30,570 nt of DNA, from positions 1-30,570 of IMG/VR virus record IMGVR_UViG_3300042691_007090. One strand, given 5' to 3'. This document shows, in pieces, positions 7,621 through 30,570 of the stretch (positions within the stretch are counted from its first letter, which is position 1; every line of letters begins with the position of its first letter). The notes beneath the pieces are model-generated. The model did no database searches, had not been told where the DNA came from, and saw nothing but the letters and a program-made list of their open reading frames with translations. The position numbers and the translations under genes were made by a program. The DNA is from a virus.

Positions 7621-7650
7621 TTGCATAAGCGCCACGATCTGTTATAAAAT
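7621..7650 (+). promoter_or_regulatory. Sigma70-like promoter upstream of scaffold/capsid block
   Basis: A TTGCAT element (7621-7626) is separated by 16 nt from TATAAA (7643-7648, in TATAAAAT). The -10 is near consensus; the -35 matches only its TTG core. It lies in the 108-nt gap after a gene end and directly precedes a two-hairpin leader with the same layout as at 24143. Confidence 0.55.
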
Positions 7651-7656
7651 TTCTTC

Positions 7657-7671
7657 GGGCGAGTTGCGCCC
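7657..7671 (+). promoter_or_regulatory. Leader hairpin 1 (GGGCG/CGCCC)
   Basis: A 5-bp GC-only stem (7657-7661 with 7667-7671) closes an AGTTG loop. It begins about 9 nt after the -10 element, hence at or near the predicted 5' end of the transcript. A GC hairpin at this position could protect RNA from 5' decay or take part in control of the terminator-like hairpin downstream. The counterpart at 24175 has the same position but a different sequence. Confidence 0.5.
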
Positions 7672-7682
7672 AAAATTTACCG

Positions 7683-7707
7683 AAGCCAGCCACCGAGCTG
7701 GCTTTTT
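7683..7707 (+). terminator. Terminator-like hairpin directly before the 7710 start codon
   Basis: An 8-bp stem AAGCCAGC/GCTGGCTT (7683-7690 with 7697-7704) with loop CACCGA runs into TTTTT (7703-7707), three bases before the ATG at 7710. It has all the marks of an intrinsic terminator. Because the promoter at 7621 lies upstream, it may also act as an attenuator producing a roughly 50-nt RNA. Confidence 0.7.
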
Positions 7708-7709
7708 CT

Positions 7710-7910
7710 ATGACTGATTACTCATCAAGCACATGGCATGTTTTGCGCAAGTGGGCGGAAGCCCAGCTTGAGCAAGCCAGAATCAAGAACGACGCTGTTG
7801 CCCTCTCCGATGTTGAGACAGCGGCGATGCGGGGTGAGATACGCATGCTAAAAAGATTTCTCGACTTGCCAAATGCGGCAACTCGGGGTGTGGTGGTCGA
7901 GCCGGATTAA
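7710..7910 (+). CDS. Small conserved phage protein (66 aa)
   Basis: ATG 7710 follows the U-tract of a terminator-like hairpin, with no clear ribosome-binding site. The 66-residue product (STWHVLRKWAEAQLEQAR, then VETAAMRGEIRMLKRFLDLP) is almost entirely helical. The pattern 'W..L..wae..L...R......ta..RGeI..Lk..L.LP' is common to small phage proteins next to portal/scaffold genes, with no assigned function that I know. The absence of a Shine-Dalgarno and the closeness to the hairpin suggest translation is tied to RNA structure. Confidence 0.7.
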   Translation: MTDYSSSTWHVLRKWAEAQLEQARIKNDAVALSDVETAAMRGEIRMLKRFLDLPNAATRGVVVEPD

Positions 7911-8889: not shown

Positions 8890-9948
8890 ATGTCTATTCA
8901 AAATTACGGCACCGTAGCATCGCGAAATCTAATCCGCGCCGCCCAAGGTATGCTTGAACACGCACAGCCCATCACTGTTTTGGGCGACTTCGGTACTCAA
9001 CGTGAGATGCCACAGAACTCGACAGACACCTTGGTGTTCCGTCGTACTCTGCCTTTCGGCGCATCTACCGCAGGTACAACAATCGAGAACTCTTCTCGCT
9101 ACGTTGGCACTCCTGACATCACCGCTTCCAACTTCGTGTTGGCTGAAGGTGTGACACCCAACGCAAACACGATCTCTTTCCAAGACGTGTCTGTTCAGTT
9201 GCAACAATATGGCGTGCTGTTCAAGTACTCCAGCAAAGTTGAGCAGCTGTACGAAGATGACATCCCCGGCGAAATGGTCAAGCTCACAGGCGAGACTTTG
9301 GCTGAGGTGATGGAGATGGTTCGTTACGGTGTGCTGAAAGCCGGTTCTACTGTGATCTATGCAAACGGTTCTAGCCGCTCTGCAATCAACACAGCAATCA
9401 GCTTGAACGCAATTCGTAAAGCAGCTCGTACGCTTGAGTCCAACCGTTCACGCCGTGTGACCAGCCGTCTGGCTCCCGGTGTCAACTTCGGCACTCGCGC
9501 TGTGCAGCCCGCATACGTTATCTTCTGCCACACTGACGCTGTCAGCGACATCCGTAACTTGCCCGGCTTCACCCGTGTGGAAGAGTACGGTTCATTCAAG
9601 CCAATCCATGACCGCGAAATCGGCGCTTGCGAAGACTTCCGTTTCATCAGCTCACCCCTGTTGAAATCCTTTGCTGCTGCTGGTTCTGCAACCTTGAACG
9701 GCATGTTGTCTGTTGGCGCTGCTAACGTTGACGTGTATCCCTTCATCATCATCGGTGAAGACTGCTGGGGCCAAGTCGCTCTTAAGGGCATGTCTGCCAT
9801 CAAGCCTGTGGTCCTCAAAGCCTCACAGACCAACCACGCCAACCCATTGGGCCAATTCGGCTACGTGGGTGCTTCTACATGGTTCGCGACTGTGCGTCTC
9901 AACGACGCCTTCATGGCCCGTATCGAAGCCGGTGTGACCGCTCTGTAA
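8890..9948 (+). CDS. Major capsid protein, N4-gp56 family
   Basis: This 352-residue protein begins at ATG 8890 with AAGGAAA upstream. It reads as an HK97-fold capsid of the N4 gp56 type. The N-terminal arm contains YGTVASRNLIRAAQGMLEHA; the block FRRTLPFGAS follows. The helix KLTGETLAEVMEMVRYGVLKAG precedes an Ile/Asn-rich spine, and the characteristic FCHTDAVSDIRNLPGFTRVEEYG and KPIHDREIGACEDFRFISSP come next. The C-terminus VGASTWFATVRLNDAFMARIE is typical. It forms the icosahedral shell. Expression is expected to be the highest in the window, and a GNRA-capped hairpin lies just past its stop. Confidence 0.93.
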   Translation: MSIQNYGTVASRNLIRAAQGMLEHAQPITVLGDFGTQREMPQNSTDTLVFRRTLPFGASTAGTTIENSSRYVGTPDITASNFVLAEGVTPNANTISFQDVSVQLQQYGVLFKYSSKVEQLYEDDIPGEMVKLTGETLAEVMEMVRYGVLKAGSTVIYANGSSRSAINTAISLNAIRKAARTLESNRSRRVTSRLAPGVNFGTRAVQPAYVIFCHTDAVSDIRNLPGFTRVEEYGSFKPIHDREIGACEDFRFISSPLLKSFAAAGSATLNGMLSVGAANVDVYPFIIIGEDCWGQVALKGMSAIKPVVLKASQTNHANPLGQFGYVGASTWFATVRLNDAFMARIEAGVTAL

Positions 9949-10945: not shown

Positions 10946-11020
10946 CCTAACGGAGGGTTTTGCAGGTTGCCTTCGGGCAACCTGCTTTTTGGCAAACCGA
11001 TTTTTTTAAACCTAACGGAG
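10946..11020 (+). repeat. 10-bp direct repeats (CCTAACGGAG) flanking a terminator
   Basis: CCTAACGGAG occurs at 10946-10955 and again at 11011-11020, on either side of the hairpin at 10962-10990. The second copy supplies the ribosome-binding site for the 11029 gene. The first has the same GGAG but is followed by no start codon, so it looks like a relic or a duplicated leader. Confidence 0.75.
10962..10990 (+). terminator. Strong intrinsic terminator after the capsid block
   Basis: A perfect 10-bp stem GCAGGTTGCC/GGCAACCTGC (10962-10971 with 10976-10985) is closed by a TTCG tetraloop and followed by TTTTT. This is the clearest terminator in the window and separates the capsid genes from the neck/tail genes. 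No promoter is obvious between it and 11029, so tail genes must depend on read-through, antitermination or an unrecognised promoter. Confidence 0.93.
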
Positions 11021-23646: not shown

Positions 23647-24146
23647 AATTGAGCAAAGCCGGTGCTGATTTGATGCACCGCTTTGAAGGGTGTAGGAGTA
23701 AACCCTACCTATGCCCGGCCAACATTTGGACAATTGGTTTTGGGCATGTGTTGTACCAAGACCAGATCAAGCTGCCCATGGTGCGCAAGGAGGGTTACGC
23801 TGGCGTGATCCGCAGTGAGCACCCTTTGCAATCGGAGGACAACCGTGTTTGGACAAAAGAAGAAATCAACAAACTATTCGCTGATGACGTTGCGTCTTTT
23901 GAACGTGGTGTTCTACGACTTGTTCCCGGCTGTGCTGGGCATCAAGGTCGCTTTGACGCTTTGGTATCTATATCCTTTAATTTTGGATTAGGTAACCTCC
24001 AGCGCAGCACAATCCGGATGAAGGCCAACCGGGGGGATTGGGAGGGCGCAGCAGAGGCTTTCATGGTTTGGACCAAGGGCGGGGGCAAAGTACTGCCCGG
24101 GCTTGTCAAGCGGCGGGTGGCCGAAAGGGAGTTATTTTTATCTTGA
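23643..24146 (+). CDS. Endolysin, GH24 lysozyme
   Basis: Starting at 23643 the product is 167 residues, a peptidoglycan-cleaving muramidase. The active-site region reads RFEGCRSKPYLCPANIWTIGFGH: Glu15 catalytic, Cys24 in the usual Asp position and Thr30, i.e. the E-8-D/C-5-T pattern with Cys. The C-terminal half has FDALVSISFNFGLGNLQRST and GGGKVLPGLVKRRVAEREL, standard for the family. Between GFGH and VWTKEEIN is a roughly 35-residue insert (YQDQIKLPMVRKEGY...) not usual for the family. There is no signal or anchor, so access to the wall depends on the holin. Confidence 0.95.
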   Translation: MKLSKAGADLMHRFEGCRSKPYLCPANIWTIGFGHVLYQDQIKLPMVRKEGYAGVIRSEHPLQSEDNRVWTKEEINKLFADDVASFERGVLRLVPGCAGHQGRFDALVSISFNFGLGNLQRSTIRMKANRGDWEGAAEAFMVWTKGGGKVLPGLVKRRVAERELFLS

Positions 24147-24170
24147 CCAACCCGGTTATTAAAGTAAAAT
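24143..24170 (+). promoter_or_regulatory. Sigma70-like promoter for the internal-virion genes
   Basis: TTGACC (24143-24148), 5/6 match to the -35 consensus, is separated by 16 nt from TAAAAT (24165-24170), 5/6 match to the -10 consensus. It overlaps the lysozyme stop and precedes a two-hairpin leader like the one at 7621. Confidence 0.7.
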
Positions 24171-24174
24171 CTGT

Positions 24175-24193
24175 GCGGGGCTCGTGCGCCCGC
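24175..24193 (+). promoter_or_regulatory. Leader hairpin 1 (GCGGG/CCCGC)
   Basis: A 5-bp GC stem (24175-24179 with 24189-24193) with a 9-nt loop begins 5 nt after the -10 element. It occupies the same slot as the 7657 hairpin but has an unrelated stem sequence; the shared part is position and GC-only pairing. Confidence 0.5.
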
Positions 24194-24196
24194 AAG

Positions 24197-24219
24197 AAGC
24201 CGCGTCACGCGGCTTTCTC
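24197..24219 (+). terminator. Terminator-like hairpin before the 24235 gene
   Basis: A perfect 8-bp stem AAGCCGCG/CGCGGCTT (24197-24204 with 24208-24215) with a 3-nt loop TCA runs into TTTCTC. It parallels the 7683 hairpin (AAGCC...GGCTT). The U-run is short, so termination may be partial. Confidence 0.6.
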
Positions 24220-24234
24220 ATTTGTGGAGCAAAT

Positions 24235-25239
24235 ATGGCTATAGCAAACAATCCATTCGATCTAAACACCAACACCGGGTCTAACCTGCTTACTGCGGCC
24301 ACAAAGGCTATGTCGGCACCGCAGGCGACCGGGTATAACGCCGCGACAGCTGGCGCTTCGGGTTACGACGCCTCAAACGCAGCGGCTACCGGGTACACCG
24401 CTGGTAACGCGGCCCTAACTTCATTGACTCCCCAAAGCAATGAAACCGTTCAGGGTCAGTTAACCGGAATTCTTGCAGCTAACTCGCCCTTGCTTCAACA
24501 GGCTCGGGCAGCTTCTTTAGCCCAGATGAACCAACGCGGTTTGACCAATTCAAGCATGGCCATAGGCGCTGGTCAAGAGGCCGTTATCAAACAAGCTCTG
24601 CCAATTGCGTCGCAGGACGCTACGACTTTTGCCAACGCTGGTCAGCTCAACACTAATTTGGCCAACCAGAACGCCCAGTTCAACACCGGCCAAACAAACA
24701 CCGGTTTGCAGTTTGGCGCGGCCGCTGCAAATCAAGCGGCTTTGGCCAATGCGGGCGCGCAGAACCAAGCGTCTCAATTTACTGCTGGCGCCAAGAACCA
24801 AGCGGCCTTAAACAACGCGGCCAATCAAAACCAAGCCGCCCAGTTTACGGCCGGCGTGCAGACCGATGTGTCTAAGCAATACTCCACGGCTTTGAACAGC
24901 ACTGTTCAAAACATGATGGACCAGTCAATGAAAATTGCTTTGGCTAACGCTGATTCAAATACCAAGATTGAGTTGCAAAACATTGATGCCTCGACCCGTA
25001 AAGACTTGGCCGCAACTGAAGCTAGGTACAAGAACCAAATGCAGGCGTCACAAAGCGCAAACGATATTTTCCAGCAAGTGTCTAAGAACATTGCGGATCT
25101 TATGGCCAACCCTGACTTAGATACGACCCAAGTAACCGCAGCGGTCAACGATCAAAAAGCGCAATTAAAAACTGCGCTTGGAATTTTGAGCGCAACGTCT
25201 GGCATCCCCGGGCTTAAAGACTTGTTGGTCTTTACATGA
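24235..25239 (+). CDS. Probable internal virion/ejection protein with Asn/Gln/Ala repeats
   Basis: ATG 24235 follows GGAGC with 5 nt spacing. An upstream in-frame start would run through the leader hairpins and is rejected. The 334-residue protein opens with Gly/Ala/Tyr repeats (ATGYNAATAGASGYDASNA). It has the segment ARAASLAQMNQRGLTNSSMAIGAGQE, then Asn/Gln/Ala repeats of the form NQA.QFTAG, and a helical C-terminus (SANDIFQQVSKNIADLM). The 'LaQMNQRGL.NSSMA..AGQ' pattern is common to proteins preceding polyvalent internal virion genes. A capsid-internal or ejection role is inferred. It couples to the next gene (ATGA). Confidence 0.65.
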   Translation: MAIANNPFDLNTNTGSNLLTAATKAMSAPQATGYNAATAGASGYDASNAAATGYTAGNAALTSLTPQSNETVQGQLTGILAANSPLLQQARAASLAQMNQRGLTNSSMAIGAGQEAVIKQALPIASQDATTFANAGQLNTNLANQNAQFNTGQTNTGLQFGAAAANQAALANAGAQNQASQFTAGAKNQAALNNAANQNQAAQFTAGVQTDVSKQYSTALNSTVQNMMDQSMKIALANADSNTKIELQNIDASTRKDLAATEARYKNQMQASQSANDIFQQVSKNIADLMANPDLDTTQVTAAVNDQKAQLKTALGILSATSGIPGLKDLLVFT

Positions 25240-28064: not shown

Positions 28065-30570
28065 ATGGCATTTGACGTTCAAGGTGCTTTAAAGGACGGA
28101 TACAGCCCGGCCGAGATTGCTGACTACCTTGCCAGCAAAAGAAACTTCGACGTTGATAGCGCTCGTAAGGACGGCGTTAGCGACGACGAAATCATAAGCC
28201 ACCTGACGAGTCGGGTTGCTGCCCCCAAAGCGGCGCCAGTGGAGGAAGCCCCTGCACCCGCGCCTGCACCCGCGCCTGCACCTGTTAAACCAAAAGAGCC
28301 ACCGGGCGTGCTGTCGCGCGCGGCCGAGGCTATCAAAGGCACGGTTAGTGGGATCGTTCCCGCCTTTGTGGAAAAAGTCACGCCCTACAAAAGCGTGTTG
28401 GAGACAGCGCCTGCGTTAACAGCTCAACAGCAACAGGCCGAAATTGACAAGCGCTTGGGCTATGGCGCAGGACCTATCAGTCGCGAGACTGTGGCCAAGG
28501 CCGACCAAATGCGCATGGGGCGCGTACCGGTTGAGCCGGGCCCCGCGCTTACTGTTGCCAAAGCTCGCGAAGCCCAAGGCGCCGAAACTTTTGACCAACT
28601 GGTTCAACGGTTAAAGAGCGACGAGCTGTTACAGCAAGATGTTGAAACTGCGCGTCGCCAACGCTCTGCTGAAGAAAGCCCTTTGCTTGCCAGCGCTGCT
28701 GCCGGTTCAGCGGGTTTGCTTAGCGGCACCTTAAACATTCCAAGCGTAGCGGCCGACTTTATCAACCAAAGTGTTGTCAACCCCGTTTTGCAATTGGCCG
28801 GTCTAAAACCTTTGGCCAGAGCGCCTACCGCGTTTGGTACTGAATACCTTGCCAAAAGCACTCAAGATTACATGCCTAAGATTGGCACCCGCAGCATGGA
28901 AGGCGCGTGGAAAAACGAAGAGTTTGGCCCGTGGCTTATGTCCAAGCTGGCGGCTAACTCCCCTCAAATGGCACAGCAATTGGCTGCGGCTTTTGTACCT
29001 CCGCTTCGCGTAGCCTTGCTGGGCAGCATGGGCGGCACAGCGGCTGGCCAAAGCTACGCGCAGGGCGATGACTCTCGGGTAGCTGTAACCAAGGGCGCAA
29101 TTGAAATCGGCACAGAGATGTTGCCGTTAAAAGTTTTTGACAAATTGGGCGACACGTTTAAAGGCCTATCGGTTGCAAAGCAAAACGCCATCTGGGCAAT
29201 TACTGGACAGAGACTGGCGCAGTCAGGTGTTGCAATCACAGCCAACGGCATTACCAACGCCGTTGAAGAAACGGTTGCCCAATTTGGCGGCAACGTGCTT
29301 GACAAGTTTTTCCAAGGCAAAGACATTGAGCTAAGCAAAGATCTTGGTGAGGCCGCTGTGATTGGCGCAGCTACGGGCACGGTCATGTCAACGCCGCAAG
29401 TTGCCGGCATTGCTACGGGCGCCTACGACCCCAACGCGCAGATTGCCCGGGCTATTGAACAGAACGTTGCCAATACCCAGTTTACAGGTATTGACCAAAC
29501 TGCCCGTAACCTATTAAGTCCCCAGACATACGACGCCCGGTTGATCAGCCCGCTGCAAACGTCAGACCCATCACGCGTTTTGCAATCAACCTCGGTTGAC
29601 GACGCGGTCACCTCGGCAAATGAATTGGCCGGATCGCTGGAGATCACACCCAAGCCGCTTGCGCCTGTTGCAATTGAACCCCCGCCGTTGCCGGCCGTAG
29701 ATACCCTTGGCCGGATCGAGCCAACGTTTGATCCCAACGAGCCGTTGCCTGCCCTTGACACAATGCAGGCCCTAACGTTGCCCGAACCAAGCGTTGCTAC
29801 AGAACAACAGTTTGGTTTGGACAAGTTGCGTTTGACTGCACCGCGTCCACAAAAGATCCAAGGTGTTGCGGTTTCGCAACTGTCCAACGACCAGCTTCAG
29901 GCCATCACTACTGACGAGACCATCCCTGCAATTACCCGCAGAGGCGCGTCAGTTGAGCTCACAGCGCGTCAAGCGGAAGTGGCTGGTACTACCCCAGCCA
30001 CTGGACTTACAAACGTCCCTGCCGTACTATCAGCCGATGCAGCAACCCAAACCATCACCGCCGACAAAACCCTTACCCTCCCAGAATCGGAAGTGTCTGG
30101 TGCCGCAATTGCGCCAGTGGGAGGAGAGTCTGCCGCAGCAGGAGCGAGAGCAACTGCACAAGATGTTATCGACAGGTGGGCTACTTCCAACGGTGTAGAA
30201 AGCCCAGCGGTTTTCAATGCGTCTCCAGTAGCACTGGACAGCGCAGTCAATGAAATCGCTCAAGCGCTGAATAGCCAGTTTGGTGCTAGGGTTTACGCTT
30301 ATAACGACGACCGAGCCAACGCCATAAACGGCGTGGCCATTGGCGGCGCGGCCTTCATTAACACAGCCAACGTTGACACCAACGTTGCGCGCACAGGCCT
30401 ACACGAATTCCATCACACGGTTGAACAGCTTGCAAAACTGGAAGCCAAGCAAGGCCAAACCAACACGGCCGCTCAGCAATACGTGGCCAGCATGGACGGC
30501 ATCTTTGACGAGATGACCGATGCGGGTAAACGCGCATACCTTGAAAACTTCCTGATGAAGGAAGAGCTGG
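28065..30570 (+). CDS. Giant polyvalent/internal virion protein with HEFHH metalloprotease-like motif (3' end missing)
   Basis: ATG 28065 follows AAGGAC. The frame stays open for 835 codons to the window edge and continues beyond. Residues 1-50 contain two units of 'FDV..A.kDG.s..EI..yL' type (DVQGALKDGYSPAEIADYL; DVDSARKDGVSDDEIISHL). A Pro-Ala run at about 61-73 looks like a flexible hinge, and a hydrophobic/helical region near 215-335 suggests membrane contact. The HEFHH motif is at residues 780-784, preceded by VARTG and followed by TVEQLAKLEAK; HExxH is the zinc-protease signature. Large phage proteins often combine such enzymatic domains and are ejected with the DNA. The third zinc ligand is not visible in the part present. 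Confidence 0.8.
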   Translation, partial: MAFDVQGALKDGYSPAEIADYLASKRNFDVDSARKDGVSDDEIISHLTSRVAAPKAAPVEEAPAPAPAPAPAPVKPKEPPGVLSRAAEAIKGTVSGIVPAFVEKVTPYKSVLETAPALTAQQQQAEIDKRLGYGAGPISRETVAKADQMRMGRVPVEPGPALTVAKAREAQGAETFDQLVQRLKSDELLQQDVETARRQRSAEESPLLASAAAGSAGLLSGTLNIPSVAADFINQSVVNPVLQLAGLKPLARAPTAFGTEYLAKSTQDYMPKIGTRSMEGAWKNEEFGPWLMSKLAANSPQMAQQLAAAFVPPLRVALLGSMGGTAAGQSYAQGDDSRVAVTKGAIEIGTEMLPLKVFDKLGDTFKGLSVAKQNAIWAITGQRLAQSGVAITANGITNAVEETVAQFGGNVLDKFFQGKDIELSKDLGEAAVIGAATGTVMSTPQVAGIATGAYDPNAQIARAIEQNVANTQFTGIDQTARNLLSPQTYDARLISPLQTSDPSRVLQSTSVDDAVTSANELAGSLEITPKPLAPVAIEPPPLPAVDTLGRIEPTFDPNEPLPALDTMQALTLPEPSVATEQQFGLDKLRLTAPRPQKIQGVAVSQLSNDQLQAITTDETIPAITRRGASVELTARQAEVAGTTPATGLTNVPAVLSADAATQTITADKTLTLPESEVSGAAIAPVGGESAAAGARATAQDVIDRWATSNGVESPAVFNASPVALDSAVNEIAQALNSQFGARVYAYNDDRANAINGVAIGGAAFINTANVDTNVARTGLHEFHHTVEQLAKLEAKQGQTNTAAQQYVASMDGIFDEMTDAGKRAYLENFLMKEEL

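Follow-up and report, generated by a model that had tools for sequence, protein, structure and literature searches.

Genes and leaders at the locus

The DNA analysed here, hereafter the window, is a 30.6-kb viral fragment from IMG/VR (30,570 nucleotides). It carries two leaders of similar organisation, leader A (7621-7709) upstream of the capsid operon and leader B (24143-24234) upstream of an operon beginning with a predicted internal-virion gene (Table 1). Over 30,569 of its 30,570 bases, the window is identical to a longer contig of 51,999 bp (G001).

Table 1. Elements of leaders A and B and genes located behind them (window positions)
Feature	Position	Strand	Description
Promoter A	7621..7650	+	Predicted late promoter, TTGCAT-18-TAAAAT
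Hairpin 1 of leader A	7657..7671	+	GGGCG AGTTG CGCCC; contains the predicted pause motif, Y-1 at 7667, 17 nt past the -10
Hairpin 2 of leader A	7683..7707	+	AAGCCAGC/GCTGGCTT followed by TTTTT; intrinsic-terminator-like
First gene of operon A	7710..7910	+	66 aa; followed by a scaffold-like gene, then the major capsid gene
Major capsid gene	8890..9948	+	Downstream of leader A
Promoter B	24143..24170	+	Predicted sigma70-like late promoter; -35 TTGACC (24143-24148), 16-nt spacer, -10 TAAAAT (24165-24170)
Hairpin 1 of leader B	24174..24194	+	TGCGGGGCTCGTGCGCCCGCA; kept in homologous leaders
Predicted pause site of leader B	24177..24188	+	G-11 G-10 ... T-3 G-2 C-1 G+1; Y-1 at 24187, 17 nt past the -10
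Hairpin 2 of leader B and short T tract	24197..24216	+	Putative intrinsic-terminator-like attenuator, tR' analogue; covariation
SD-like TGGAG	24225..24229	+	Precedes the ATG; kept in relatives
First gene of operon B	24235..25239	+	Predicted internal-virion protein; ATG at 24235

The order of elements initially claimed for leader B was borne out: the promoter TTGACC-16-TAAAAT is followed by a GC hairpin, by a second hairpin with a perfect stem (AAGCCGCG, 24197-24204; loop TCA; CGCGGCTT, 24208-24215), by a short T tract and by the ATG. This T tract is weak (TTTCTCATTT), its Ts at 24214-24216 being followed by CTCATTT. The folded RNA of leader B reaches -29.6 kcal/mol (z -2.55), and hairpin 2 by itself has a z of -4.5. 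A strict joint scan for promoter, hairpin and terminator found leader B once in the 52-kb near-identical relative, the background being one match in 15 Markov shuffles of this whole genome. The product of the gene behind leader B has no match in PHROG or Pfam; in relatives, it has a GYNAA-type repeat-rich variable region flanked by conserved ends.

Leader A shows the same element order, as had been claimed. The spacing, also claimed to be equal, is about the same between the -10 and hairpin 1 but not between the two hairpins, which are separated by about 11 nt in leader A and by 2 nt in leader B. Their T tracts also differ, TTTTT in leader A and weak in leader B. The conserved 66-aa gene that follows leader A lacks an SD, and its ATG lies 2 nt past the T tract. 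At the threshold of the scan, no sigma70-like promoter was found on the + strand between 7710 and 8890. Joined to the position of this ATG, this implies that transcripts of the capsid operon must traverse hairpin 2, the sole transcription route found into this operon. Capsid transcripts, initiated at promoter A or upstream, being obliged to pass this hairpin, a regulated read-through is called for. A strong ordinary terminator (GCAGGTTGCC TTCG GGCAACCTGC TTTTT) is located at 10962-10985, slightly past the capsid gene.

Conservation of the leaders and a third copy

With the capsid protein and two virion proteins as queries, more than 100 loci were gathered from relatives; these phages are uncultured, mostly aquatic, and form a family. 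Counting canonical leaders, a homologous leader precedes the homologous gene at site A in 46 distinct relatives and at site B in about 20. Furthermore, a third copy, leader C, was found in 17 distinct relatives upstream of a small gene preceding the terminase genes. Its expected position is just outside the window, both the window and the 51,999-bp contig starting just downstream. Complete relatives carry three modules, at the terminase, capsid and internal-virion operons, and at each of these sites the leader is kept in many relatives from IMG/VR. The leader repeat reported as a second copy is real but was undercounted, as the search for further copies gave three in relatives.

Covariance models built from one site recover other sites (the A model finds B and the B model finds A). 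In Rfam, no family came near its gathering score for the leaders, at gathering or relaxed thresholds. Weak model matches in the named phages MW202426 and vB_Pun_Y3 were inspected and are not leaders. Of the 82 leaders, 68 have a TTG located 16-18 nt before the -10 (38/46, 18/20 for group B and 12/16 in the three groups), the full -35 hexamer not being strictly kept. Neither the bases between -35 and -10 nor the distance between hairpins are common to the three sites; no Q binding element (QBE) motif common to the three sites was found between -35 and -10, where group-specific conserved bases exist. In the same way, the initially transcribed region holds no -10-like (TANNNT-like) hexamer conserved across the three sites. 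Some relatives have no hairpin 2, the distant L108 and L110 at site B and L030/L031 at site A.

Selection for pairing is strongly supported for hairpin 2. In 71 distinct leaders, whose alignment was fitted to the structure, 98.1% of its cells are paired and six of its seven pairs show changes on both sides. For both hairpins together, the covariation score of this alignment is 0.292; shuffles give 0.105 +/- 0.009, none of them reaching 0.292, and slid controls 0.052 or less. An alignment-free stem search, which itself selects for pairing and some of whose stems (a few) are hairpin 1, recovers the same stems with 677 Watson-Crick, 9 G-U and 2 other pairs. The loop of hairpin 2 has 3 nt in leader B and 3-10 nt in relatives, and the uninterrupted run in the T tail has a mean of 4.2-4.8 T. 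This usual T tract suggests that hairpin 2 is an intrinsic-terminator-like attenuator, at which transcripts would end. The original prediction took changed sequence within a kept layout as a sign of selection on structure and proposed to look for compensatory changes in relatives. For hairpin 2 the idea holds, pairing being kept and not broken.

For hairpin 1, the evidence for structural selection is mixed. Its core occurs as GGGC..GCCC in 47 leaders, GGAC..GTCC in 12, G-U in five and A-C in five. These versions were counted separately from the 71-leader alignment, in which pair counts understate the pairing of hairpin 1 because its register differs between subgroups. When the 82 leaders from the three groups are aligned on the -10, 78 show G-10, [TC]-3, G-2, Y-1 and G+1 in this core, a count that is not a probability since related leaders are not independent, although the three sites are different places of the genome. 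The Y-1 is located 17 nt past the -10 at sites A (42/46) and B (17/17 matching) and 16 nt past it at site C (15/15 matching). By chance, the rule matches 0.37% of window positions. T-3 and G-2 are part of the elemental pause consensus. The published consensus comprises G-10, Y-1 and G+1 (PMC12288461, PMC7876045). Much of the conservation of hairpin 1 is accounted for by this predicted pause motif, whose distance from the -10 is fixed.

A lambda-Q-like protein at the end of the early operon

In the 51,999-bp contig, the rightward early operon encodes successively a Cro/YdaS-like regulator, a primase-helicase, a VRR nuclease and a SNF2 helicase, and ends with P0001, a zinc-motif protein of 153 aa with two CxxCxGxG halves. 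Another relative (G003) shows the same early-gene order, followed by accessory genes and then by leader C. Four cysteines, corresponding to two CxxC zinc-finger halves, are invariant in the 29 sequences of the P0001 family.

Searched against the whole PDB, the profile of this family has lambda Q as its best match (7ubm, E 1.2e-4). Its alignment to lambda Q with hhalign gives a probability of 90 and an E of 1.4e-6 over 116 collinear columns, and PHROG 127 "anti-termination protein Q-like" matches P0001 in its N- and C-terminal parts. The four best Foldseek matches of the AlphaFold model (pLDDT 80) are lambda Q three times, then AlpA; the best, lambda Q, has a probability of 1.00 but an E of only 0.038. 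The family does not reach the cut-off of PF03589 (no match in G001 and 10.5 bits in G010, the lambda control giving 106.7 bits). In Pfam, neither Q21 (PF06530) nor Q82 (PF06323) matches, the control being silent for the latter. On the basis of profiles and of the predicted structure, P0001 is a distant homologue of lambda Q. In Pseudoalteromonas phage vB_Pun_Y3 (OR779980.1), a gene annotated as "molecular chaperone DnaJ" (L134, 552-1136) is matched both by the PHROG of Q-like antiterminators (E 3e-11) and by the P0001 family profile; it is probably a misannotated Q protein.

Of the 15 relatives examined first, 13 encode a relative of P0001. In an independent set of 13 contigs recruited by P0001 alone and searched with the leader model, 11 carry a leader, four of these having three copies, and the two others encode the most divergent Q homologues. 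Three relatives with divergent B leaders (G014, G032 and G033, the last two being fragments) have no P0001 homologue. Leader B is also present without a Q homologue in G004 (IMGVR_UViG_3300044591_001148). This genome shares only the lysis to giant-protein genes with the window phage, its left half being different. Since it has no homologues of the capsid, portal and terminase genes of the window phage, it is a recombinant phage or a chimeric contig. With only part of the genome in common, it was set aside as a counterexample to the pairing of leader and Q.

A candidate Q-type switch and competing explanations

The conservation, the covariation, the fixed position of the pause motif, the Q homology and the co-occurrence observed make it likely that the leaders are Q-type late promoters with built-in terminators, three per genome. 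Termination, pausing, Q binding and antitermination themselves are inferred from these observations. One module would control each of the terminase/portal (C), capsid (A) and internal-virion (B) operons. Host RNA polymerase would initiate at the sigma70 promoter of each module and meet, about 11 nt into the transcript, a strong pause sequence corresponding to the core of hairpin 1. Like tR' in lambda, hairpin 2 would then stop most transcripts ahead of the first gene. P0001, produced from the last gene of the early operon, would load on the paused polymerase, which could then transcribe past hairpin 2 and the terminators beyond it; in the capsid operon, the Q-modified polymerase would need to read past the terminator at 10962-10985. 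Built-in stop signals thus probably keep the late genes off as long as the Q-like protein does not let polymerase through. A more detailed version is put forward only tentatively, as possible rather than probable: Q loading would use an elemental pause about 11 nt in, with a nascent hairpin just behind it and no -10-like sigma-dependent pause, and one Q would drive three dispersed late operons in trans.

This organisation is comparable to that of lambda pR'-tR', where a sigma70-type promoter, a promoter-proximal pause signal and a terminator also lie upstream of the late genes. Lambda Q (PF03589), like P0001, has a zinc motif and is the product of the final early-operon gene, and the order Cro, primase, helicase, then the Q-like gene is as in lambda. 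However, lambda has one module of pR' type instead of three per genome, and its tR' lies about 190 nt from the start, whereas the terminator of the leaders is at about 30-90 nt. Its pause is at +16/17 and uses a -10-like element, while the one predicted in the leaders is at about +11 with an elemental-pause consensus; moreover, P0001, unlike lambda Q, scores below the PF03589 cut-off. Known Q promoters carry a -10-like element and a QBE, neither of which is recognisable in the leaders, and also differ in module number (PMC6606751, PMC9371919). In the PalpB-tB system of Pseudomonas aeruginosa, the antiterminator AlpA enables polymerase to bypass an intrinsic terminator just downstream of the promoter (PMC9371919). 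This terminator is promoter-adjacent, as in the leaders, and AlpA is the fourth Foldseek match of P0001, but neither of the two elements known from AlpA, a binding element in the -35/-10 spacer and a -10-like pause element, was found in the leaders.

Other explanations of the leaders have to be weighed against this switch. They could be unregulated: hairpin 2 would terminate poorly or stabilise the 5' end of the mRNA, its role being limited to tuning expression or to insulating adjacent operons. The weak T tract of leader B and the four relatives lacking hairpin 2 would fit this explanation, which we nevertheless regard as unlikely: in most genomes, a U tract and a GC stem with covariation are found at the three sites, pure insulation would place the terminator before the promoter and not after it, and the fixed pause motif and the Q homologue would be left unexplained. 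Antitermination by RNA only, with hairpin 1, alone or together with hairpin 2, modifying the polymerase like put and the Q-like protein acting elsewhere or just helping, appears somewhat less plausible still. As in HK022, the transcript begins with two hairpins, putL being just downstream of PL (PMC9378689), and the sequence of hairpin 1 is kept and partly covaries. However, put, about 70 nt long, is made of two long stem-loops and suppresses, independently of protein, terminators located downstream of it, whereas hairpin 1 has only 4-8 pairs, hairpin 2 is itself terminator-like with a T tract and freely changes sequence, and a Q homologue exists.

It seems very improbable that hairpin 1 serves as an operator in the DNA or as the binding site of a regulator, for example a Cro-like protein, rather than as a site of pausing and Q loading. 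The palindrome GGGC..GCCC does lie at about +1 to +15, a usual position for operators, and a Cro/YdaS-like gene is present; but versions with G-U occur, the central TGCG is kept together with G-10, and groups B and C lack perfect symmetry. The original prediction also raised the possibility of a recognition site for a phage polymerase. In N4, the promoters of the virion RNA polymerase have a small hairpin near the start site. A capsid of the N4-gp56 kind, so annotated in one relative, the virion RNA polymerase annotated in the distant relative StenR_269 and the 3-nt loop of hairpin 2 in leader B could point in this direction. Against it, the leaders keep sigma70 -35/-10 hexamers and the hairpin loop length and stem are not kept. 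Two giant proteins (1752 and 1588 aa) are encoded after the internal-virion genes (28065-30569 in the window, 10001-20531 in L096); the former gave no noteworthy match to a family or to the PDB, and the latter only weak matches to Zeta-toxin and small domains. No RNA polymerase was recognised in these giant ORFs with Pfam, PHROGs or PDB sequences, and a whole-genome Pfam search (PF00940) gave no polymerase match, its silent control leaving absence unproven. This reading thus appears extremely improbable, and the lambda-Q-like antiterminator gene explains the layout of the leaders better than a phage polymerase does.

The Q-type switch would provide a testable circuit of late-gene control for abundant, uncultured aquatic phages with an N4-type capsid, in which no RNA polymerase was recognised, and would widen Q-type antitermination to a regulon of three operons. 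Furthermore, more than 80 natural promoter-pause-terminator modules with matched Q proteins could be a resource on what a Q loading site requires.
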